A stretch of 64,000 nucleotides of DNA from Ideonella sp. WA131b (lineage in GTDB: Bacteria > Pseudomonadota > Gammaproteobacteria > Burkholderiales > Burkholderiaceae_C), in contig JAGTJW010000001.1 of assembly GCA_023657425.1 (NCBI GenBank), positions 930,001 through 994,000 on the forward strand, given 5' to 3'. Shown piece by piece: positions 28,939 to 42,484 of this stretch. A program made the translations under genes and the position numbers. Numbering within the stretch: the stretch's first letter is position 1; each line of letters begins with the position of its first letter. Under the pieces are notes generated by a model. It saw only the letters and a program-made list of their open reading frames with translations. It ran no database searches and was not told the origin of the DNA.

Positions 28939-29012
28939 CGGCGTCCTTCGCGGGCTCGGCCACGGGGGCCGCTGGCTATCATGACACCGCCCCGTTGCTG
29001 AACGTGAAGACC

Positions 29013-29537
29013 ATGCCCCACCCCGACGAAACCCACGCGGCCGACCCGCCGCTGACACACTTCGACGCCCAGGGCCAGGCGCACATGGTCGACGTCGGTG
29101 CCAAGGCCGAGACGCACCGCGTGGCGCGTGCCACCGGGCGCATCCGCATGCTGCCGGCGACCTTCGCGCTGGTGGCCGCGGGCCAGGCCCGCAAGGGCGA
29201 CGTCATCGCCGTGGCGCGCATCGCCGCCATCCAGGGCGCCAAGCGCACAGCCGAGCTGGTGCCGCTGTGCCACCCGCTGCCGATCACGCGCGTGGCGGTG
29301 GACTTCGAGCTCGACGCCGACGCCCATGCGGTGCAGTGCACGGTGCAGGTGGAGACCTTCGGCCGCACGGGCGTGGAGATGGAGGCGCTGACGGCCGTGC
29401 AGGTGGGCCTGCTCACGGTGTACGACATGCTCAAGGCCGCCGACCGCGGCATGGTGATGGACGGCATCCGCGTGCTGGCCAAGAGCGGCGGCCAGAGCGG
29501 CGACTGGGTGGCCGCACCCGCCCAGGACGGCGGCTAA
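29013..29537 (+). CDS. moaC: Cyclic pyranopterin monophosphate synthase MoaC
   Basis: A 174-residue enzyme for molybdenum cofactor synthesis step 2, forming cPMP from the cyclised GTP product of MoaA. Conserved segments: [37 protein letters not shown] and the catalytic LKAADRGM near the end. It stands alone here, without moaA or other moa genes. Its stop overlaps by four bases with the stop of the convergent pglL-like gene. Confidence 0.95.
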
Positions 29538-31297
29538 CGCGCATCCTGCACGAAGTCGCGCCACGCCGGCGTTGCATCGGGCGGGGGCTGGCACTGGAAG
29601 GCCGCGACGGCCGAAGCCGGGCTGGCGCAGGGCGCGAAGAAGCCGGCGGCATCCGGCCTGCGGAACTCGCGCAGCCGCGCCACCAGGTGGCGTGCCGCGG
29701 CGTCGTCGCCAGCGGCCGCCCGTTCGCGCGCCCAGGCCATCATGAAGCGCGTGTCGAGCAGGTAGTGGCTGGCCCGCGCCACGGCCGCCTCGCGGTCGTC
29801 GACGGGGACGTTCGAGGTGGCCGCGGCGTAGTCGGCGTGGTGGCCGAAGAACACGCTGCGCTGGCCGGCCTGCACGCGCTGCTGCAGCGGCGGCGCGCTG
29901 GGTGAGGCCTTGAAGATCTCGCTGACGCGGCGGTAGTCCCAGGTGCTCAGCGAGGCGCCCGACAGCAGCAGCAGCGCAGCGGCCATCAGCACCCAGGCCG
30001 CAGGGCGGCGCTCGGCCAAGGTGGCCGGGGGCGGCGCGGCATCGTCGGGGAGGCGCAGCGCCACCCCCAGCGCGAAGGCCGCCGGCAGCAGGAAGTAGCT
30101 GTACCAGAGCGGGTACTCCAGCAGGCTGTGCAGGCCTATCATGAGCACCACCAGCACGGCGCCACGGCGCGCCACCCCGTCGTCGCCCGGCTGCTGCCAG
30201 GCGCACAAGGCGGCGCGGCCGAAGGCCCCGAGCAGCAGCGCCAGCACCACCGTGGCCAGCGGCAGGCCGAGCTCCACGGCCAGGTGCAGCGGCAGGTTGT
30301 GGGCATGGTCGAAGAACGCGGTCGGGCGGGCCGGGAACGGCGTCAGCGTCCAGGCGAGATTGAACTGGCCCCAGCCGACGCCGAACCACGGCTGGGCGCG
30401 GATGAGCGCCAGCGTGTCGGCCCAGATGGCGAAGCGCGAGCTGGAGATGTCGGTCTCGGCCAGGCGCGCGGCGCCCCCGAAGGCCTGCTGCGTGCTGGCG
30501 GCCCACTGCGACATCAGCCACCAGGCCAGCGCATAGACCAGCGGCGCGGCCAGCAGCAGCAAGCGGCCCGGTCGCGCGGCGCGGCGGTCCAGCAGGCCCC
30601 ACAGCGCCAGCAGCAGCACGCTGACCAGCCCCGTGCGTGAGGCCGTGAGCACCACGGCGAACACCATCGCCGCCAGCAGCATGCCGCCAGCCTGCCAGGG
30701 CAGGCGGCGCAGCTCCACGAGCACGACGATGGCGATGCAAGCCCACATCAGCACGCTGCTCAGGTGGTTGGGCTGGCGCAGGTTGCCCACGGCACGGCCC
30801 ACCAGGCCCGAGGCCGCGATCCATTGCCCGTCGGCCCAGGCCGGCATGAACACCTGAATCAAGGAGATCCCCACGTTCAGCACGCCGGCCAGCAGCAGGC
30901 CCCAGCAGAACAGCGCGAACACATCGCCCACGGCCGGCCCGCCCGAGGCCACCCGCCCGGCCTGCAGCAGCAGCACCGCGGCGGCCAGCGTGCACAGCGA
31001 CGACAGCGCCAGCGAGGAAGGCAGCGAGCCGGGCCCCCACGACCAGGCCACGGCGGCCATGAGCAGGCCGATGGCCAGCTCGGGCGCGCCCAGCCGCAAT
31101 CGCCGCGCCGCGGGTGCCAGGGTGAGCACGAAGGCCGCCCACAGGCCGAAGGCGAGGGCCTGGTTGAGGAAGGTCGGGGAAGGGGCGACGTTGTAGGCGA
31201 CGAGGGTGGGGACGGTGGCGGCGAGCAGCGCCGCAGCAGCGGCGAGTCTTCGCGAAGCCGCATCGCCGGGGTACAGCGCCAACGCAGGCTCCCTCAT
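29534..31297 (-). CDS. PglL/TfpW-type O-oligosaccharyltransferase (Wzy_C family)
   Basis: A 587-residue membrane protein with 11-12 helices up to about residue 450 and a soluble C-terminal domain (Wzy_C_2 type). The WaaL/Wzy/PglL signature residues are visible: QPNH near 178 and the periplasmic loop [14 protein letters not shown] near 331-345, which holds the catalytic histidine. PglL enzymes move lipid-linked glycans to Ser/Thr of pilins in the periplasm. It lies directly downstream of a type IV pilin gene in the same direction, the arrangement of pilin-specific enzymes (TfpO/TfpW). ATG 31297 is preferred over GTG 31303. An O-antigen ligase is less likely because of the neighbour and C-terminal domain. 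Confidence 0.78.
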
Positions 31298-31455
31298 GAA
31301 CACGCCTGATGCACGTCCCGGAAAGAGCCTACAGCTGCTGGGAGATCGTGTGCAGAACGCTGGAGGGCCACGGGCGCAAGCCTACGCCACTCGCCGAGTC
31401 GGCGCGTTCCACGGGTCGTGACGCCGAAGGCACCGCGCTGCGACCGCACAAACGA

Positions 31456-31483
31456 CCGAAGGCGACCGGTTGGTCGCCTTCGG
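31456..31483 (-). terminator. Terminator after the pilin gene
   Basis: A perfect 12-bp stem CCGAAGGCGACC / GGTCGCCTTCGG with a 4-base loop lies 65 bases downstream of the pilin stop, followed on the minus strand by TCGTTTGTG. It probably ends most pilin transcripts and lowers expression of the transferase gene behind it. The rest of the 250-base gap between the two genes shows no coding capacity. Confidence 0.75.
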
Positions 31484-31547
31484 TGGCCGGCAGCTCAGCG
31501 CTGGGGGCCTGTGGACCCCCACTGCCGGCGCCGGGAGTCCCTCTTGC

Positions 31548-31985
31548 TCAGTTCTTGACGTAACCCGCGGTAACGCACTGACCGCTGTAGGTCCAGTTCA
31601 AGCGCTCACCACCGGCCACGGGGGTGAGGGTGCAGGTCTCGGTGGCGAGAATGCCTTTGTAGGCGCGCGGCGTCGCGGTGATCACGCCGTCAACAACGTC
31701 GATCTGGGAAAGCGCTCCGACCGTGCTGGTCGCGGGGGTGGGCGGCAGGCCGCCCGTGGTAGCACCCCCGTTGGCTGGAGCGTCCATCTCTGTCAGCGGC
31801 GTACCCGCCTGGAAGTTTTCGGCAACCGCCAACTTGAACGGGGCCATGGCCGCCACGATTTCGCTGTAGGCGGCGCGCTTCATGTAGTTCTGATAGGCCG
31901 GCAGCGCCACCGCCGCCAGGATGCCGATGATCGCCACGACGATCATGAGTTCGATGAGGGTGAAACCTTGCTGAACACGCTTCAT
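31548..31985 (-). CDS. Type IV major pilin (PilA/PilE)
   Basis: A 145-residue prepilin. The short leader MKRVQQG is cut before F8 by PilD, giving N-methyl-Phe and E5 in the mature [20 protein letters not shown] helix. C118 and C137 would form the C-terminal disulfide D-loop. Residues 75-93 ([19 protein letters not shown]) are rich in Ser, Thr and Pro, a likely O-glycan site for the PglL-type enzyme encoded next. GGGAG about eight bases upstream fixes ATG 31985. The strong terminator and stand-alone transcription are typical of a highly expressed major pilin. Confidence 0.92.
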
Positions 31986-32154
31986 GGACAGACTCCCGGA
32001 AAAAGGGTTGGGTGGAGGACACGCCCCATGAACGCAGGGGTCGTGCCAGCGTTCAAGCGGCCACCTGATGCGCAATTCCGCACACCGAGTGACGCGATTG
32101 GTCAGATGGAACTGCCGTACCGCGTCGCGCGGGTGGCGCAAGTGACGCAAGGCG

Positions 32155-32943
32155 TCAGGGCGCGGGGTCGGCCAGGGTCAGCACGTCGCCGGTGGCCAGC
32201 GCACGCACGCGGTGCGGACTGGCTTGGGCACGGATCTCGGCCATCACGGTCTCGACCTCGCCGGGCTTGATGTGGGTGATGCAGACCTCGGTGGCGTGCC
32301 GCAGCTGCTTCAGCTCCTGCGCCAGCATCGCCGGACACAGGTGCTGGCTGATGTTGGCGAGCCCGCGCTCCTCGTCGGAGAAGGCGGTCTCGATGACGAG
32401 CTGGGCCACGTGCATGGTGGCCAGGCGTTGCCACAGGCCTGGGTTCGGGCCGGTGTCGCCGGTGAACACCCAGGCCCCTGCGGCGCCGTGCACGGCATAG
32501 CCAACGGCGGGCACGGTGTGACGCGCCGGGAGCACCTCCAGCCGGTGGCGGCCCAGGCGCAACTCGTCGCCCACGGCCAGCGTGTGGAAACGCAGCACGG
32601 GGTTGACCGCATCGGGCAGGCGGCTGAAGTCGGGCCAGATCATGCCGTTGAAGACATGCATCTTCAGGGCCGCAATCGTCTCGGGGAGCGCATGCACGCC
32701 TATGGACGGGCGACCGGCGGCACGCCGCCGCCGCGTGACGCTGTCGGCCAGAAGACCGATGGCCAGCACATGATCGAGGTGGGAGTGCGTGAGGACGATG
32801 TGGTCGATGGCGAACATCTCGTCCAGCGTCAGGTCCCCCACGCCGGTGCCGGCGTCGACGAGGACATCCTCATCGAGCAGGAAAGCCGTCGTGCGGCTGC
32901 CGGCGGCGATGGATCCCGAACATCCGAGCACGCGAATCTGCAT
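32155..32943 (-). CDS. Metallo-beta-lactamase-fold protein, class II cyclic-nucleotide phosphodiesterase-like
   Basis: A 262-residue cytosolic protein with metal motif THSHLDHV (H53, H55, D57, H58), further ligands in FTGDTGPN and CITHIKPGE, and the start [20 protein letters not shown]. The pattern fits PDEase_II (3',5'-cyclic-nucleotide phosphodiesterase) rather than RNase Z or glyoxalase. It is the last gene of a run coding for FHA, PP2C and kinase proteins, so it may lower cAMP or another nucleotide in the same pathway. The in-frame extension to 33174 is not coding-like and is left out. Confidence 0.78.
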
Positions 32944-33001
32944 GAGGCATTGAAGATGGATGCGCCGCACGCCCGTGTCGGACACGCGTGCCGGGCGGCG
33001 C

Positions 33002-33655
33002 CTACCGTGAGATGAACTGCATCTGGGTGCCGGCAAGCTCGATGATGTCACCGTTGCGCAAAGGCACGGATACGCCCACGATGGGGGCACCGTTGATGTT
33101 GGGCCCTGTGGCGCCTTCCACGTGTGCCAAGGCGTAACCGCCGGGTCGTCTGGTGATCGAAGCCACTTGCACACCCGGCTTGCCCACGGTGGTGACGACC
33201 TTGGTCAGCACCACCTCGCGGCCGGCGGCCGCGCCGTTGAGCACCTTGATCGAGGCCGCCAGCGCCGCCGTGGGCAGGCCGCCGAAGCCCGACGTGGCGG
33301 CAGGGCCGTACGCCGCAGCGGCCGGGGCGGGCGACCCCAGGATCAGGGTCTTTTCGAGGTCGCTGCTCTCATCAACCACGAACCTGATCTTGTACTTGCC
33401 GATCTCGACGGTGTCGTTGCGCGCCAGCAGCTGCTTCTTGATGGCCTTGCCGTTGATGTAGGTGCCGTTGGTGCTGTTGAGGTCGTCGATGAAGACGTCG
33501 GTCCCTACCCTCTGCAACACCGCGTGCTCGCCGCTGACGGCGAGGTTGTCGATGACGATGTCGTTGTAGGGCCGACGGCCGAGCGTGGTCTTCTCCTTCG
33601 TGAGCTGGACTTCCTTGATCACCACCCCGTCCAACGCAACGACCAGTTTGCCCAT
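33002..33655 (-). CDS. FHA-domain protein (two FHA-like domains)
   Basis: A 217-residue phosphothreonine-binding adaptor. FHA1 (about 1-77) has all key residues: G26-R27, S41 with H44, and N63-G64 in NSTNGTYING. A second, degenerate FHA fold (about 135-217) has NINGAP and LRNGDIIEL but lacks the GR and SxxH motifs. A linker rich in Ala/Pro joins them. The neighbouring kinase and phosphatase genes probably write and erase the mark it reads. ATG 33655 with GAGGG upstream is preferred to TTG 33667. Confidence 0.88.
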   Translation of the reverse strand: MGKLVVALDGVVIKEVQLTKEKTTLGRRPYNDIVIDNLAVSGEHAVLQRVGTDVFIDDLNSTNGTYINGKAIKKQLLARNDTVEIGKYKIRFVVDESSDLEKTLILGSPAPAAAAYGPAATSGFGGLPTAALAASIKVLNGAAAGREVVLTKVVTTVGKPGVQVASITRRPGGYALAHVEGATGPNINGAPIVGVSVPLRNGDIIELAGTQMQFISR

Positions 33656-33707
33656 GCCTGCCCTCAATCCTCGTGCGCGCGGGGGTCGCCAGGTGGCCCG
33701 GGTTCGC

Positions 33708-34496
33708 TCAGTGCTTGAACGGCCACCATGAACGGCCGGCAGACGACGCGGGGCTGGCGGTTGCGCGGCCCAGGATCACGGAGATGTTGTCTTTTCCCCC
33801 CGCATGGTTGGCGGCGTCGATGAGCGCAAGCGTGCATTGCGCCAGCGTCTCATGCTGCAGCAACACCTCGGCAATGCCGTCGTCATCGAGCATGTCGGAC
33901 AGGCCGTCGGAGCACAGCAGGAACAGATCACCCGTCTGCACGTCGTGCTGGTGGATCTCCAGCAGCACGGTGTCTTCGACGCCCACGGCGCGCGTGACGA
34001 GGTTCTTGTTGACCGAGAAGGCCGCCTGCTCCGGGGTGATGAGGCCGGCGTCGATCTGCTCCTGCAGCAGCGAGTGGTCGCGCGTGATCTGCTGCAGCCT
34101 GCCCTCGCGCAGACGGTAGCATCGGCTGTCGCCGACGTGGCCCAGCAGCAAACGGTTGTCGCGGAACACGGCCATCACCAGCGTGGTGCCCATGCCGGCG
34201 AACTGCGGGTTGCTGTGGCCGGCGTTGTAGATCGCGCGGTTGGCGTTGTCGACGCAGATGTCCATCGCCCGCCGCACCTCGGCGTCAGGGGCCTGGGCCG
34301 AGGCCTCGCGCAGCCAGCGCCCGAGCTCGTCGTGGATGAAGCACGTGGCCATGTGGCTGGCCACCTCGCCGGCGTTGTAGCCGCCCATGCCGTCGGCCAG
34401 CACCGCCAGCGCCACGACGTCATCGGTGGCGACCGAGTCTTCGTTGTTGCTGCGCGCCCGGCCCGGGTCCACGGCGGCATGGAGCTCGATCTTCAT
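33708..34496 (-). CDS. PP2C-family protein phosphatase
   Basis: A 262-residue metal-dependent Ser/Thr phosphatase (Stp1/PrpC type). Motifs in order: RSNNEDS (D20), ADGMGGYNAGEVAS (D35, G36), GHVGDSRCYRL, TRDHSL, LLCSDGLSD and GGKDNISVIL, covering all metal-binding aspartates. There is no membrane segment. Encoded between the kinase and FHA genes, it is the likely antagonist of that kinase. Confidence 0.93.
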   Translation of the reverse strand: MKIELHAAVDPGRARSNNEDSVATDDVVALAVLADGMGGYNAGEVASHMATCFIHDELGRWLREASAQAPDAEVRRAMDICVDNANRAIYNAGHSNPQFAGMGTTLVMAVFRDNRLLLGHVGDSRCYRLREGRLQQITRDHSLLQEQIDAGLITPEQAAFSVNKNLVTRAVGVEDTVLLEIHQHDVQTGDLFLLCSDGLSDMLDDDGIAEVLLQHETLAQCTLALIDAANHAGGKDNISVILGRATASPASSAGRSWWPFKH

Positions 34497-34581
34497 CGGC
34501 ACGGGCTGCGTCTTCTGCGGGTGGTGCAACGCGGAGGATTGTGCCTCGGAACCGGCGCAACCCGGCGACCCGAGAGCCGGC

Positions 34582-35424
34582 TCAGCGTGACGGAGAGCCG
34601 CCCCGCCGCAAGGCCGCGAAGGCCGCGGCCACGGCCTGCGCATCGTCGGGGCGGGCGGTGCGCTCACGGGTCAGCAGCCGGGCCACCAGCGCCGACAACG
34701 CGGGCGTGATCCCCGGGCACCACTGCGCCAGGTCCGGCACCGGGTCCTGGGCGACGCGGCGCAGCAGCTCGCCCATGGTGGCTGCTTCGTGCGGAAGTCG
34801 GCCGGCGAGCAGCTCGAAAGCCATGGCGCCGAGGGCGTAGAGGTCGCCGCGGGCGTCGGGCTCGGCGCCCGCCAGCTGCTCGGGGGCCATGTAGGCCGGG
34901 GTGCCGGGCACGATCCCGGTGCCGGTAGGGCTGCTGCCCACGGTCCACGCCAGGCCGAAGTCGACGATGCGAACCGCGTCGTCGGCCCAGTTCACCAGCA
35001 CGTTGGCGGGCTTGAGGTCACGGTGCACGACTCCGTGTGCGTGGGCATGCGCGAGGCCGCGGGCGACGCGCTCCAGCACCCGCACGACCACCGGCTCGGG
35101 CAGCAGGCGCGCCGGGCGGGTGTAGCGCTGCAGGTCGGTCCCGGGCACCGGCTCCATCGCCAGCCAGGCCGTGGAGCCGGCGACGCCGGCGTCCCACACG
35201 GCCACGACACCCGGGTGATCGAGACCCTGGGCGAGCCGAACGGCCGCCAGGAAGGCCTCGGCCGCGGCCTCCAGGCCCGGCCTGGCCGGCAGGGTTTGCA
35301 CCTTCAACGCGGCGATCTGGTCACCGCGACGGGCGAGCCAGACCTGGCTCTGCGCGCCGGCCCCAAGCCGGCGGATCAGCGTCCAACCGGCAACGACGCC
35401 GTCGCTGCCGGCCGGTTCAGGCAT
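34582..35424 (-). CDS. Serine/threonine protein kinase (soluble, catalytic domain only)
   Basis: A 280-residue Hanks-type kinase: glycine loop LGAGAQSQVW (20-29), catalytic K41 in AALKVQ, HRDLKPAN (134-141), DFG (155-157) and the APE motif in YMAPEQ. It ends shortly after the kinase domain, with no transmembrane or PASTA part, so it is cytosolic and must get its input through partners. It begins 12 bases after the second TerC gene and precedes the PP2C and FHA genes in one direction. Confidence 0.92.
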   Translation of the reverse strand: MPEPAGSDGVVAGWTLIRRLGAGAQSQVWLARRGDQIAALKVQTLPARPGLEAAAEAFLAAVRLAQGLDHPGVVAVWDAGVAGSTAWLAMEPVPGTDLQRYTRPARLLPEPVVVRVLERVARGLAHAHAHGVVHRDLKPANVLVNWADDAVRIVDFGLAWTVGSSPTGTGIVPGTPAYMAPEQLAGAEPDARGDLYALGAMAFELLAGRLPHEAATMGELLRRVAQDPVPDLAQWCPGITPALSALVARLLTRERTARPDDAQAVAAAFAALRRGGSPSR

Positions 35425-35436
35425 GGCCAGCGGCGA

Positions 35437-36177
35437 TCACATGGCGTGGCGCTGCGCCGCGCGCTGCTTGAGGGCCCGGCCGATGCCCAGCACCAGCAGG
35501 GCCCCGGCCAGCCCCGCGCCATAGCGCAGCCAGCCCACGACCTGAGGCAGGTCGCCGGCATTGGCCGACCGCACCGTGGGGACGTAGGGCAGCAGCAGCG
35601 GGTCGCCCACGGCCATCGAGCCGGCGATCCAACCCAGCAGCATGCCGCCGGCCGTGATCACCACCGGGAAGCGGTCCATGAGCTTGATGACCAGCTGGCT
35701 GCCCCAGACGATGATCGGGATCGACACCAGCAGGCCGAAGATGACCAGCGGCAGCTGCTGCCCCGGCGCGGCCGTCTCAGCGGCACCGGCGATGGCGATG
35801 ACGTTGTCCAGGCTCATCACGAAGTCGGCCACGATGACCGTCTTGACGGCGCCCCAGAGCTTGTCGCTGCCGGCGACCTCGCCGTGCGACTCGGACCCGC
35901 TGTCGCTCAGCAGCTTCACGCCGATCCACACCAGCATGATCGCGCCGGCCACCTTCAGGAACGGCAACTTCAGCAGCGACAGCGCGAAGAAGATGAGGAT
36001 CACCCGCAGCACGATGGCGCCGGCCGTGCCCCACAGGATGCCCATGCGACGCTGGGCCGGCGGCAGGTTGCGACACGCCAGCGCGATGACCACCGCGTTG
36101 TCGCCGCCAAGCAGGATGTCGATGGCGATGATCTCGAGCACCGCCAACCAGCTGATCTGGGCCAGGAAGTCCATCAT
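35437..36177 (-). CDS. TerC-family membrane protein (copy 2)
   Basis: A 246-residue protein with about seven helices and the two TerC metal/DN motifs: GGDNAVVIAL (24-33) and MSLDNVIAI in the mirrored half. TerC-family proteins are linked to Mn export at protein secretion sites and to tellurite/stress resistance. The start MMDF at 36177 overlaps the end of the upstream TerC gene by four bases (ATGA). The Ser/Thr kinase gene follows after 12 bases. Confidence 0.88.
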   Translation of the reverse strand: MMDFLAQISWLAVLEIIAIDILLGGDNAVVIALACRNLPPAQRRMGILWGTAGAIVLRVILIFFALSLLKLPFLKVAGAIMLVWIGVKLLSDSGSESHGEVAGSDKLWGAVKTVIVADFVMSLDNVIAIAGAAETAAPGQQLPLVIFGLLVSIPIIVWGSQLVIKLMDRFPVVITAGGMLLGWIAGSMAVGDPLLLPYVPTVRSANAGDLPQVVGWLRYGAGLAGALLVLGIGRALKQRAAQRHAM

Positions 36178-36899
36178 GTCGTGCCCTGGTTGCCGGAGGA
36201 GTCGCCAGCACCGCGGCGGCGGCGCGCGAGCCACTGGCCGACGAGCACCACGCCCACGGCACCGGCCAGCTCGACGATCGTCGTCGTCGGACCGCCCAGC
36301 CGCGTGAAGAGGCCCTCGGCCGCCTGGTCGTGCACCAGCATCTCGCCGGCCACGAAGCCCAGCAGCGCGGCGCCCAGCGTGATGATCACGGGGAAGCGCT
36401 CCATGACCTTCATCAGCACCTGGCTGCCGAAGATGATCAGCGGGATCGAAAGGCCCAGGCCCGCGACGAGCAGCAGCACACGCGCTTCGGGCGGGCCGCT
36501 CTCGGCAGCGGCGGCCACGGCAATGACGTTGTCGAGGCTCATCACGAGATCGGCGATGAGGATCGTTCGGATGGCCCCGGCCAGGTTGCCGGCCGTCTTG
36601 ATGCCACCCTCGTGGTCGTCTTCCGGCACCATCAGCTGCACGCCGATCCAGAACAGCAACGCCGCCCCGACGAGCTTGAGATACGGGTAGTGCAGCAGCT
36701 CGACCGCGAACAGCGTCAGCACCACCCGCATGACGATGGCCACCGCACTGCCCAGGAACACGGCCTTCTTTCGCTGCGATGCGGGCAGGCCGCGGGCGGC
36801 CAGCGCGATGACGACTGCGTTGTCGCCCGACAACAGGATGTTGACCCAGACGATCTTGCCCAACGCGACCCAGAAGCTTGCGTCCGCCAATTGCTCCAT
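36174..36899 (-). CDS. TerC-family membrane protein (copy 1)
   Basis: A 241-residue paralogue of the next gene, with motifs SGDNAVVIALAARGLP near 24 and MSLDNVIAV in the second half, around seven helices and an Arg-rich, Gly/Ser C-terminus. It heads the co-directional run TerC-TerC-kinase-PP2C-FHA-phosphodiesterase. The tandem pair may form a heteromer or handle different metals. No clear riboswitch is seen in the 60-base leader. Confidence 0.88.
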   Translation of the reverse strand: MEQLADASFWVALGKIVWVNILLSGDNAVVIALAARGLPASQRKKAVFLGSAVAIVMRVVLTLFAVELLHYPYLKLVGAALLFWIGVQLMVPEDDHEGGIKTAGNLAGAIRTILIADLVMSLDNVIAVAAAAESGPPEARVLLLVAGLGLSIPLIIFGSQVLMKVMERFPVIITLGAALLGFVAGEMLVHDQAAEGLFTRLGGPTTTIVELAGAVGVVLVGQWLARRRRGAGDSSGNQGTT

Positions 36900-36960
36900 G
36901 AAGCCTCCTCGTGCCGGGGACCACGGCGGTACCCTTGCGGCGAGTAGGGCATTTTAGGCG

Positions 36961-36982
36961 CAGGGCGCCGGGCGGCGCCCTG
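36961..36982 (-). terminator. Terminator after sucD
   Basis: CAGGGCGCC / GGCGCCCTG, a 9-bp perfect stem with loop GGGC, lies 24 bases beyond the sucD stop; downstream on the minus strand is CGCCTAAAAT rather than a U-tract, so termination may be partial and some sucCD transcripts could enter the TerC run. Confidence 0.55.
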
Positions 36983-37005
36983 TGGCAACTACATAGGCAT
37001 CGTGT

Positions 37006-37899
37006 CTACAGCAGCGACTTCAGCAGCCGGCCCATCTCGGACGGGTTGCGCGTCACCTTGAAGCCGCACTCCTCCATGATGGCCAGCTTGGCGTCGGCGG
37101 TGTCGGCGCCGCCGCTGATGAGCGCGCCGGCATGGCCCATGCGCTTGCCCGGGGGCGCGGTGACACCCGCGATGAAGCCGACGATGGGCTTCTTCATGTG
37201 GGCCTTGCACCAGCGCGCGGCCTCGGCCTCGTCGGGGCCGCCGATCTCGCCGATCATGATCACGGCGTCGGTGTCGGGGTCGTCGTTGAAGGCCTTCATC
37301 ACGTCGATGTGCTTCAGGCCGTTGATCGGGTCGCCGCCGATGCCGACCGCGCTGCTCTGGCCCAGGCCGATCTCGGTGAGCTGCGCCACGGCCTCGTAGG
37401 TGAGCGTGCCCGAGCGGCTGACGACGCCGATGCGCCCCTTGCGGTGGATGTGGCCGGGCATGATGCCGATCTTGATCTCCTCGGGCGTGATCAGACCCGG
37501 GCAGTTGGGGCCGAGCAGCAGCGTCTGCTTGCCGCCGGCGGCCTCCTTCTGCTTCATCTTGTTGCGCACCATCAGCATGTCCTTCACGGGGATGCCTTCG
37601 GTGATGCAGATCACGAGGTCAAGGTCGGCCTCGACGGCCTCCCAGATGGCGTCGGCGGCGCCCGCGGGCGGCACATAGATCACGCTGACGGTGGCGCCGG
37701 TGGCGGCCTTGGCCTCGGCCACGCTGGCGTGGATGGGAATGCCCTCGAAGCGCTCGCCGGCCTTCTTGGGGTTCACGCCGGCCACGAAACAGGCCTGGCC
37801 ATGGGCGTAGGCCTGGCAGCCCCTGGTGTGGAACTGGCCGGTCTTGCCGGTGATGCCCTGCGTGATGACACGCGTGTCCTTGTTGATGTAGATCGACAT
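37006..37899 (-). CDS. sucD: Succinate-CoA ligase, alpha subunit
   Basis: A 297-residue subunit of succinyl-CoA synthetase (TCA cycle: succinyl-CoA + NDP + Pi to succinate + NTP + CoA). The CoA-binding Rossmann start [20 protein letters not shown] and the phosphohistidine H256 in MGHAGAL are present. It follows sucC with a 98-base gap occupied by a repeat pair, so ribosomes must re-initiate after a strong RNA hairpin. Confidence 0.97.
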
Positions 37900-37918
37900 G
37901 GTGCTACCTGTTCAGACT

Positions 37919-37988
37919 CCGTTCGCCCTGAGCTTGTCGAAGGGCATGGTGGGTGTCGCCAGGGCTTCGACAAGCTCAGCCCGAACGG
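37919..37988. repeat. Inverted pair of REP-like repeats between sucC and sucD
   Basis: CCGTTCGCCCTGAGCTTGTC (from 37919) and its imperfect inverse GCTTCGACAAGCTCAGCCCG (from 37964, ending in AACGG at 37988) form arms of about 25 bases around a 19-base centre. The sequence 'TTCGACAAGCTCAG...CGAACGG' is a dispersed palindromic repeat familiar from many proteobacterial genomes. In the operon mRNA it would fold into a long hairpin exactly between the two subunit genes. Confidence 0.75.
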
Positions 37989-37997
37989 AAGGTGGGT

Positions 37998-39158
<1,161 letters not shown>

Positions 39159-39196
39159 GTCGCCTCCTCGCGAGGGTTCTGCAGTGGTCGTCGGGG

Positions 39197-39769
39197 TCAG
39201 GATTCGGACGCCGGGGCGGCTGCCGGGCGGAACCAGCGCGGGTAGAACTCGCGCACGGCCGGGCCGTCGGTGCGCAGCGCATGGCACCGATCGAGTTGGT
39301 AGGGCTGCGCCGCGCCGTCGGCGGTGCCGCGGGTGTCGATCACCTCACCGGCAAAGCCCTGCACCACGGCTGTGGGCAGCACCTGGGCCAATTCGGTGAG
39401 ATGGGTGCATGCCTGCACGCCGCCCAGGCGCGCGCGCACCTCGCGGTGGAAGTTCTTCAGCAGATTCAGGCCGACCAGACGCCGGTAGGCGTCGCCATGC
39501 TCGCTGCAAATGCCGGGATAAGGCATGGCGCGCGTCTCGGAGCCGGCCTCGACGATGTCGAGCTCGCGCGTCACCACCAGCCGCAGCAGCATGTCGTGGA
39601 TCGGGGCGCCCGGCGGGCGTGGGCCATCCGCCATCTGAGCAACTCGGGTCTTGGCGTCAAAGACGGTGGCGTCGACCTCCCAAAGGCCGTCGTCGCGCGC
39701 GAACACCTGCACGTCGATCTGACGGCGGTGCTTCAGCTGGCGGGTCGGCGCCGCGGTTGGGAGGCTCAT
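39197..39769 (-). CDS. DUF2889 domain protein
   Basis: A 190-residue protein of unknown function starting [20 protein letters not shown]. It has the DUF2889 pattern: [20 protein letters not shown] near 16, [17 protein letters not shown] and a cysteine-histidine segment [20 protein letters not shown]. No signal or membrane segment. In Burkholderiales this gene commonly lies between recA/recX and sucCD, as here. An alternative ATG upstream (39838) adds unconserved sequence. Confidence 0.8.
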
Positions 39770-39911
39770 CGGCAAGGGCGGACTGCAAAGCCGATGCGGC
39801 GGCGCAGCAACGGGCGGGCGCGAATGTAGCACGCACATTCCGGCGCGAAGCTGACGCCGCGGCTCCGGCCGGGCCCCATGAGGGCCGGGCGACCGGGGCG
39901 ATGTAGAGGGG

Positions 39912-40545
39912 TCAGTCCAGGGCTTCGTCGGCCGCGAGGGCGTCGTCGCCAGCGCCGCCGCGCACGACGCGGCGGATGACGTCGCCGCAGAATCCGCGGC
40001 CGGCCAGAAAGCGCATCTGACGCGCCCGCTCGGCCGGCGTGGCGCCCGGGCCGCCGAAGCGGCGCTGCCACAGCGCCTGGGCGCGCTCGAACTCGCTGTC
40101 GCGGGCCTGCTGCACGGCGGCGTCCACCAGCGCAGGCTCCAGGCCGCGCTGCTGCATCACCTGGCGCAGCCGGCTCTCGCCAAAGCGCGGCGCCTTGGCC
40201 GCCAGCAGCGCCTCGGCCATGCGCGGCTCGTTCATCAGCCCGGCGGCGGCCAGACCGCCGATGACGGCGGCGACACGTTCGCGCAGCAGGCGGTCGGGGA
40301 AGGTCGCGTTGGGAATGGCGGCGTCGGGGGCGGGCGCGTCGGGTGGTCCGGTGGGCCCTGCGCCGGCCTGGGCCGCCTCGGCCAGCCGCGCCAGCGCCCG
40401 CGCGTGCGCGATCAACTTGCGCTCCAGTTCGGCGCGGCTGTGGTCGCGCTGCGCCAGCCAGCGCAGCGCGCGCGACTTCAGCGCCCCCAGCGTGGGCCCG
40501 TCGGCGGCGCGCAGCGGCGGACCGCCTTCGGCCCGGCTCGCGGGC

Positions 40546-40568
<23 letters not shown>
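39912..40568 (-). CDS. recX: Regulatory protein RecX
   Basis: A 218-residue modulator that binds RecA filaments and inhibits strand exchange. Core segments: [40 protein letters not shown]-like [16 protein letters not shown] and RRFGGP. An Ala/Pro-rich insertion of about 25 residues (near 68-90) makes it longer than the usual 150-160. The only plausible start is GTG 40568, inside the end of recA, giving a 23-base overlap and probable translational coupling. Confidence 0.85.
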
Positions 40569-41586
<1,018 letters not shown>

Positions 41587-41632
41587 GGGGCTCTCCTGAG
41601 GGTGGCGGTTTCGGCGGATGATAGCCAGAAGA

Positions 41633-41648
41633 CTGGATGGGCGTACAG
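41633..41648 (-). promoter_or_regulatory. LexA (SOS) box upstream of recA
   Basis: On the minus strand CTGTACGCCCATCCAG matches the LexA core CTG-N10-CAG. A possible -10 element TATCAT (41618-41623, minus strand) lies between it and the gene, so bound repressor would cover the promoter. Confidence 0.7.
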
Positions 41649-41812
41649 CCCTTTTGGTGGCGCCCGGCCGCGGGGCCACCGGCGGCAGTCGGGCCACGGG
41701 TCTTGGGCCTTGACGCTGCGCAAGGGTGGCGTCACCCTGCTGCCTAGAATGAGCCTACCGCGCCGGTTCAGAGCGTGGGCTCTGCAAGAGCCGCAGCCGC
41801 AGGAGACACGCC

Positions 41813-42484
41813 GTGAGAATCCTCATCGCCGAAGACGACCAGGTGCTCGCCGACGGGCTGTTGCGTAGCCTCCGGTCCTCGGGCTACGCCGTCGACCAGG
41901 TCGGCAACGGCTCAGAGGCCGACGGTGCCCTGGCTGCGCATGAGTTTGACCTCGTGATCCTCGACCTGGGCCTGCCCAAGATGCACGGATTCGAGGTGCT
42001 GCGCAAGTTGCGCGCGCGCGGCAGCGCCGTGCCGGTTCTCATCCTCACGGCGGCCGACAGCGTGGAGCAGCGTGTCAAGGGTCTCGACCTCGGCGCCGAC
42101 GACTACATGGCCAAGCCCTTCTCGCTGCAGGAGCTCGAGGCCCGTGTTCGCGCGCTCACGCGGCGTGGCCTGGGCACCGCCAGCAGCCTGCTCAAGCACG
42201 GCCCGCTCACTTTCGACGCCACCGGCCGCGTCGCCTACCTGAACGACCAGATGGTGGAGCTCTCCGCGCGCGAGCTCAGCCTGCTCGAGGTGCTGCTGCA
42301 GCGTGCCGGCCGCCTGGTGAGCAAAGACCAGCTTGTCGAGCGCCTCTGCGAATGGGGCGAAGAGGTCAGCAACAACGCCATCGAGGTCTACATCCACCGC
42401 CTGCGCAAGAAGATCGAACAGGGGCCGGTGCGCATCGCCACGGTGCGAGGCCTGGGATACTGCCTCGAAAAGATTGCGGCCTGA
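41813..42484 (+). CDS. OmpR-family response regulator (QseB/TctD-like)
   Basis: A 223-residue regulator: receiver domain with acidic pair E7-D8-D9, phosphorylated D51 in VILDLGLP and lysine in DDYMAKPF, then a winged-helix domain (about 125-220, ELSLLEVLLQRAGRLVSKDQ, VYIHRLRKKIE). The start is GTG 41813 with AGGAG ten bases upstream. It is paired with the sensor kinase encoded 36 bases downstream. A small GGGTG/CACCC dyad at 41724-41737 could be an operator. Confidence 0.93.
   Translation: MRILIAEDDQVLADGLLRSLRSSGYAVDQVGNGSEADGALAAHEFDLVILDLGLPKMHGFEVLRKLRARGSAVPVLILTAADSVEQRVKGLDLGADDYMAKPFSLQELEARVRALTRRGLGTASSLLKHGPLTFDATGRVAYLNDQMVELSARELSLLEVLLQRAGRLVSKDQLVERLCEWGEEVSNNAIEVYIHRLRKKIEQGPVRIATVRGLGYCLEKIAA

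Follow-up and report, generated by a model that had tools for sequence, protein, structure and literature searches.

The window analysed here, a 64,000-nucleotide stretch of the Ideonella sp. WA131b genome (contig JAGTJW010000001.1, positions 930,001 to 994,000), contains a run of six genes for two TerC-family membrane proteins, a Ser/Thr kinase, a PP2C phosphatase, a forkhead-associated (FHA) protein and a phosphodiesterase-like enzyme (PDE). We favor, with moderate confidence, the interpretation that this run is a sucCD-linked TerC pair standing beside a widespread Ser/Thr-phosphorylation module, present here in reduced form. All six open reading frames (ORFs) were confirmed from the ORF list and the sequence. 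They lie on the minus strand from 36899 to 32155, with the start of TerC2 overlapping the stop of TerC1 by 1 base and with gaps of 12 (TerC2-kinase), 85 (kinase-PP2C), 52 (PP2C-FHA) and 58 bases (FHA-PDE), and a scan detected no terminator-like site in any minus-strand gap of the run. A previous sequence-only reading of this DNA had described the same co-directional order with short gaps, a kinase without a sensor domain, and the kinase, phosphatase and FHA protein as one unit. The families and the 12-base gap agreed with that description, the kinase (280 amino acids) consists of the kinase domain alone, and the grouping of the three genes recurs far outside the window.

Conservation of the module was surveyed in an order-level (Burkholderiales) sample of 120 genomes including that of WA131b, 76 of which contain a match to the window FHA protein at E<=1e-10. 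FHA-centred loci were fetched from 72 of the 75 relatives with a match (the weak matches G038, G040 and G085 were left out) and annotated with the proteins of the window and of its relatives; the counts are of same-strand genes in each stretch, and contig ends cut some stretches short. A recurring gene order was observed: CHASE2-kinase, PP2C, FHA, CHASE2-cyclase, PDE, GAF-ATPase, GAF-HD-GYP and pilin. Among the 72 loci the FHA gene was accompanied by PP2C in 64, PDE in 42, GAF-HD-GYP in 40, CHASE2-kinase in 39, GAF-ATPase in 37, CHASE2-cyclase in 33, pilin in 28 and TerC in 15, with PP2C immediately before FHA in 62 and the PDE lying downstream of FHA in its 42. Pfam searches of one example of each multidomain protein returned CHASE2+Pkinase, CHASE2+Guanylate_cyc, GAF+MshEN+T2SSE and GAF+HD_5. 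MshEN domains bind cyclic di-GMP (c-di-GMP) and HD-GYP proteins are c-di-GMP hydrolases. At class level, 40 of 185 genomes matched the N-terminus of the kinase; 20 of these loci, mostly high scorers, were fetched, and in this set, chosen for having the kinase, kinase, PP2C and FHA occurred together in 18/20. The CHASE2-cyclase lay within the stretch in 9/20 (on the other strand in 6 of the 9). The partnership of CHASE2-kinase, PP2C, FHA, CHASE2-cyclase and PDE was not described in the open-licence PubMed Central (PMC) literature searched, and within that literature the locus is apparently undescribed.

The copy in the window is smaller than this full form. Its kinase retains the motifs by which such enzymes are commonly recognized (the Lys in ALKV, HRDLKPAN and DFG) and occupies the same position in the locus as the CHASE2 kinases, whereas many of its order-level relatives are CHASE2-kinase fusions of ~850 amino acids. 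A profile search found no CHASE2 match in the WA131b genome (the positive control matched 2/14 genomes), and a search with the N-terminal region of the GAF-ATPase, run without a positive control, found no match there. The CHASE2-cyclase gene is absent from the locus, and the genome encodes two other class III cyclase domains. A fused CHASE2-kinase is kept between sucD and PP2C in L095 (from genome G049, same family) and in L057 (Aquabacterium, a close named relative). In the kinase tree the close relatives' kinases form a grade, in which short-branched members (Rhizobacter) adjoin the CHASE2 kinases and others, including that of the window, are long-branched. From this distribution the window kinase most likely lacks a sensor because it has lost one, and the tree is consistent with sensor loss followed by faster change. 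A guess that the N-terminus of the full-length kinases holds TPR repeats was not confirmed, Pfam returning CHASE2 and kinase domains only.

The FHA protein carries a short threonine motif, [DE][KR]T[MLV][IV][LMI], directly after its FHA domain, which in the window takes the form SDLEKTLIL with the threonine at residue 103. Of 175 aligned FHA sequences from close relatives, the order and the class, 93% have threonine in the Thr103 column; in the linker that follows (columns 110-133) conservation was at most 47%. A related motif, T-[VIML]-[MVILQ]-[LIM], is found in 44/59 CHASE2 kinases no more than 50 residues ahead of the kinase domain, mainly as ETVIL or ETVML, a count made with no chance control. 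FHA domains prefer a particular residue at the third position after the phosphothreonine, and both motifs have the preferred form. Foldseek matches of the FHA model, itself weak, included the FHA structures of GarA, OdhI and DgcB, the top matches being GarA/OdhI complexes (E 2e-5 to 3e-4). Taken together, the conserved threonine motifs in FHA protein and kinase, their FHA-preferred form and the fold matches led us to propose that Thr103 could be phosphorylated and then bound by an FHA domain, which suggests a phosphothreonine self-switch resembling those of OdhI/GarA, DgcB and the Fha protein of the type VI secretion system (T6SS). Another candidate FHA ligand, the conserved WDG...K tail at the C-terminus of the cyclases, was dropped because its threonine is not conserved.

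The last gene of the run encodes a protein with the metallo-beta-lactamase-like fold common to RNase Z and PDE1. It scored 50.4 bits against Lactamase_B_2 and 45.7 bits against PDEase_II, both above the Pfam cut-offs (23.7 for PDEase_II). The HxHxDH metal motif is present, and H53, H55, D57, H58, H142, D163 and H224 are invariant in 30 sequences. A structural model of good quality (predicted local distance difference test score, pLDDT, 88.1) had among its nearest Foldseek structures YhfI, yeast PDE1, RNase Z and Apyc1 at 14-21% identity. Since the PDE gene sits after the CHASE2-cyclase gene in many relatives, a cyclic nucleotide is its likely substrate. The previous suggestion that this enzyme may remove cyclic nucleotides agrees with gene position and metal motif and finds no backing in the phosphodiesterase model NF041851 (46.7 bits, cut-off 400).

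The TerC pair behaves differently from the rest of the run, and the best reading of the distribution data is that TerC is a neighbor of sucCD and that the phosphorylation module lies beside it. TerC was counted at a threshold of E<=1e-20 in 63 FHA-bearing genomes, since the TerC search covered all but 9 of the 72 fetched loci. No TerC was found at this threshold in 24/63; TerC lay near the FHA gene on the same strand within 6 kb in 11/63 and within 16 kb in 19/63. Its distance from sucD was below 1 kb in 14/63 genomes, among them 9 of the 11 with TerC within 6 kb of FHA. In G023, G065, G070, G093 and G114, TerC stands beside sucD (<1 kb), with the FHA gene at a distance of 11 to 27 kb or on another contig. 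Neither of the two same-family genomes in the order sample has the arrangement of the window: in G049 the CHASE2-kinase directly follows sucD with TerC on the other strand, and in G093 TerC follows sucD and neither kinase nor PP2C was detected next to the FHA gene. The region is broadly syntenic, with recA, sucC and moaC often kept in place in the relatives' loci, so that adjacency by itself says little about joint function. An old gene order (recA-sucCD-TerC-...-pilA-moaC) holding TerC, the phosphorylation genes and the PDE together without any joint function would account for these retained flanking genes, often including sucD, and for the closeness of TerC to sucD. As an explanation of the whole run we consider it unlikely. 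Kinase, PP2C, FHA, cyclase and PDE occur together even where sucD is out of view (for example L101, L106 and L124), and given also the grouping seen in the class-level loci, synteny alone is insufficient for the kinase-PP2C-FHA-cyclase-PDE part.

Several observations weigh against the interpretation of a TerC neighbor beside a reduced, phospho-switched module. The kinase tree does not prove the loss of the sensor: it is midpoint-rooted, long branches join one another in it, and a long branch carrying the divergent kinases sits within the CHASE2 group. The FHA model is poor (pLDDT 63.6) and supports no more than a beta-rich C-terminus. The strict threonine motif is missing from 12/21 FHA rows of divergent-kinase loci, and at order level its absence was compared with that of the kinase: it is missing in 7/21 no-kinase loci vs 5/37 CHASE2-kinase loci (Fisher p=0.097), or in 7/21 vs 2/37 with weak forms scored as kept (p=0.008). 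Among the no-kinase loci, 11/14 that keep the motif and 2/7 that lack it come from genomes with a strong kinase match elsewhere or at any position (p=0.056). On the tree these losses reduce to 2-3 independent pairs on supported branches, too few events to give a tree-based test any power; motif loss with kinase loss runs in the predicted direction and is not established. Membership of the PDE in a phosphodiesterase family is weak, its PDEase_II match covering residues 48-107 only and its NF041851 score being far below the cut-off. Finally, TerC and the module are close companions among the nearest relatives. These were the best 80 of at least 521 loci in an FHA-protein scan of named genomes, mainly Rubrivivax, Rhizobacter, Roseateles and related genera; many of the contigs end early, and absences at contig ends were not scored as losses. 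Of the 65 named loci with both sucD and PP2C in view, 59 have TerC and kinase in between, 2 have TerC without a detected kinase, 3 have a kinase without TerC and 1 has neither, which places TerC upstream of the module in 61/65. In the order sample, 4 kb separate TerC from the FHA gene in genome G011, whose sucD lies on a different contig. A link of some kind between TerC and the module is possible in view of the 61/65 loci and of G011.

These same two points, along with the 12-base and 1-base junctions in the window and the spacing among close relatives (for 32/58 TerC-preceded kinases the TerC match is no more than 250 bases away), favor an alternative in which the TerC proteins, by sensing or transporting metal, supply the input of a kinase that has no sensor, giving a metal-responsive phosphorylation pathway. 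We regard this as rather improbable. TerC was not found at the above threshold in 24 of the FHA-bearing genomes and, where near FHA, is mostly beside sucD; it also lies upstream of sensor-bearing CHASE2-kinases in 8/39 order-level loci, and on this ground the idea of TerC as a replacement sensor was set aside as unlikely. In 12/58 close loci, moreover, the distance from TerC to kinase exceeds 700 bases and reaches 2.7 kb; the inspected loci have candidate ORFs in this interval. The sequence-only reading had put forward the TerC proteins as candidate inputs of the kinase, and a link of TerC to stress signaling. The first is not borne out by these counts; the second finds no counterpart in WA131b, where the TerD profile (PF02342) gave no match (positive control matched 2/14 genomes) and involvement of the tellurite (TerD-type) Ter system was accordingly rejected. 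Separation of TerC from the kinase is the rule across the order and the exception among the 65 close named loci. No paper linking TerC to a kinase was found in the PMC literature searched, and TerC as a kinase input should not be read from adjacency in a single genome. The TerC pair itself probably functions in metal transport or metalation, as judged from its family. Both proteins score above the cut-off of the YjbE model, and work on Bacillus subtilis assigns to MeeF/MeeY the metalation of exported enzymes (PMC10550928); MeeF and MeeY are other members of the TerC family than the window pair, for which such a role is a candidate.

The remaining part of the run resembles several characterized systems. 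In the threonine phosphorylation pathway of the T6SS (PpkA-PppA-Fha), a Ser/Thr kinase, a PP2C phosphatase and an FHA protein likewise act together, with the FHA protein reading phosphothreonine to switch a machine; Fha is described there as binding phosphorylated Thr14 of TssL (PMC3953482). The window has kinase, PP2C and FHA genes together as well, but its FHA protein is not of the VI_FHA/TagH type (TIGR03354, 35.7 bits vs a cut-off of 120.25), and the full form of the present module differs in having a CHASE2 sensor, a cyclase and a PDE. Control of a T6SS by the window module was rejected, as the sheath protein VipB (PF05943) had no match in the WA131b genome (control matched 1/14 genomes, E. 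coli). OdhI and GarA share with the window protein a similar FHA fold, a threonine target near the FHA domain and a kinase partner. In these two proteins the phosphothreonine segment is N-terminal of the FHA domain, whereas the window motif is C-terminal of it, with the first strand starting at residue 2 in the weak model and the threonine at 103; the window protein also has an extra C-terminal domain and scores 58.7 against the OdhI model (cut-off 200). Phosphorylation of OdhI is reported at Thr14 (PMC2784874). The FHA-GGDEF protein DgcB of Bdellovibrio, in which the FHA domain is described as binding its own phosphorylated N-terminal region and so controlling second-messenger synthesis (PMC6733907), is a single polypeptide with a c-di-GMP synthase, unlike the separate FHA protein here, and the cyclase linked to the latter in relatives is of class III with CHASE2. 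The likeness to DgcB is drawn from this description and the fold match. By analogy, the kinase-PP2C-FHA-PDE module may work like these three systems, while lacking some of the defining features tested for the first two. CHASE2 joined to a Hanks-type kinase is an architecture known from cyanobacteria (PMC2176072); the present locus differs in its PP2C, FHA, CHASE2-cyclase and PDE partners.

Tentatively, the full locus could be an envelope-sensing circuit in which an FHA phospho-switch joins phosphothreonine (through the CHASE2-kinase), a cyclic nucleotide (through the CHASE2-cyclase and PDE) and c-di-GMP (through the MshEN ATPase and HD-GYP protein) and drives a pilus or secretion system, the window lineage keeping a pared-down form. 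In the favored interpretation itself, the kinase of the full form would sit in the membrane, sense through a periplasmic CHASE2 domain and phosphorylate threonines, the PP2C would remove the phosphate and the FHA protein would read it. Thr103 would be a likely target of the kinase, reset by PP2C, and once phosphorylated might be bound by its own FHA domain or that of a neighboring copy, changing the partner of the FHA protein. The CHASE2-cyclase and PDE pair would set the level of cyclic AMP. Pilus or secretion activity is the likely output because ATPase, HD-GYP and pilin genes are linked to the locus. In the window, the kinase would have lost its sensor and the cyclase would have gone from the locus, leaving kinase, PP2C, FHA switch and PDE. 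That the module is instead decaying, the kinase drifting after loss of sensor and cyclase in a nearly dead pathway, is the least probable alternative: the long kinase branches among close relatives, retention of a cyclase in 13/80 named loci and the higher ratios of nonsynonymous to synonymous substitution (dN/dS) of kinase and TerC2 than of PP2C and FHA in comparison with locus L031 (0.48 and 0.46 vs 0.20 and 0.17) would agree with it, but the kinase motifs are intact, FHA and PP2C are strongly conserved, and against the nearest relative, L021, pairwise dN/dS was 0.13-0.28 for seven genes, with the kinase at 0.28. If the proposed circuit is correct, a conserved locus exists in which a sensor kinase, a phosphatase, an FHA protein that carries its own threonine target, a cyclase and a PDE stand beside pilus-type genes, and it would offer a direct and simple test of the coupling of phosphothreonine and cyclic-nucleotide signaling in bacteria.

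Coordinates of the six-gene run and its flanking genes in the window, with the supporting matches
Feature	Coordinates	Strand	Evidence
TerC1, YjbE-subfamily TerC membrane protein, 241 aa	36174..36899	-	TIGR03717 218.6 bits, cut-off 134.8
TerC2, YjbE-subfamily TerC membrane protein, 245 aa	35437..36174	-	TIGR03717 238.9 bits, cut-off 134.8
Ser/Thr kinase, 280 aa, kinase domain alone	34582..35424	-	Pkinase 137.8 bits
PP2C phosphatase, Stp1 type, 262 aa	33708..34496	-	NF033484 247.6 bits, cut-off 230
FHA protein, 217 aa: FHA domain at the N-terminus, conserved EKTLIL in the linker, beta-rich C-terminal domain	33002..33655	-	PF00498 75.8 bits; low-confidence model
Codon of FHA Thr103, proposed phospho-switch threonine	33347..33349	-	Alignment conservation
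Metallo-beta-lactamase-fold phosphodiesterase-like enzyme, 262 aa, HSHLDH motif; proposed cyclic-nucleotide PDE	32155..32943	-	Lactamase_B_2 and PDEase_II
Type IV pilin-like gene (pilA), directly downstream of PDE	31548..31985	-	N_methyl and Pilin (Pfam)
sucD, succinyl-CoA synthetase alpha subunit, upstream of TerC1	37006..37899	-	ORF list

Variant arrangements of the module were seen in a number of genomes. Seven loci from other families (L113, L114, L115, L118, L125, L140 and L148) carry two PP2C-FHA pairs, between which a divergent kinase of ~450-560 amino acids lies on the opposite strand, and three class-level loci (L187, L189 and L190) have a second short FHA ORF (119-138 amino acids) after the FHA gene. 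No kinase was found in the PP2C-FHA loci of G022, G113 and G069; in the first two a CHASE2-kinase, and in G069 a kinase part, was located ~2 kb from sucD on its upstream side. Among the close relatives, L024 (7279-8250) and L036 (6969-8170) have a similar ORF of ~150-186 amino acids with the sequence MEKIAVFVND between the second TerC gene and the kinase.

The run is flanked upstream by sucC and sucD and downstream by the pilin gene and a Wzy_C/PglL-type gene; 106 bases separate the end of sucD from TerC1, and 169 bases the end of the PDE gene from the start of pilA. Positions 29000-42000 gave no Rfam match at gathering score, neither to yybP-ykoY, considered as an element upstream of TerC, nor to any other known RNA. 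In the window the sucD-TerC1 gap (36900-37005) contains a strong hairpin without a T run. Comparison of this gap with those of relatives revealed a GTAGTT element in 25/59 gaps vs 1.8 in mononucleotide shuffles, a count uncorrected for relatedness. A TA[AC]A[AC]T-like box frequently comes after the element, and some loci also have a strong hairpin there whose arms have changed but stay complementary. These conserved elements are perhaps a promoter or operator of TerC's own. Upstream of pilA, a site resembling the established sigma54 consensus (TGGCACGACCCCTGC) was located at 32034-32048 on the minus strand; it is a weak candidate because the single match compares with 0.37 expected by chance, and pilA may be transcribed from its own promoter.

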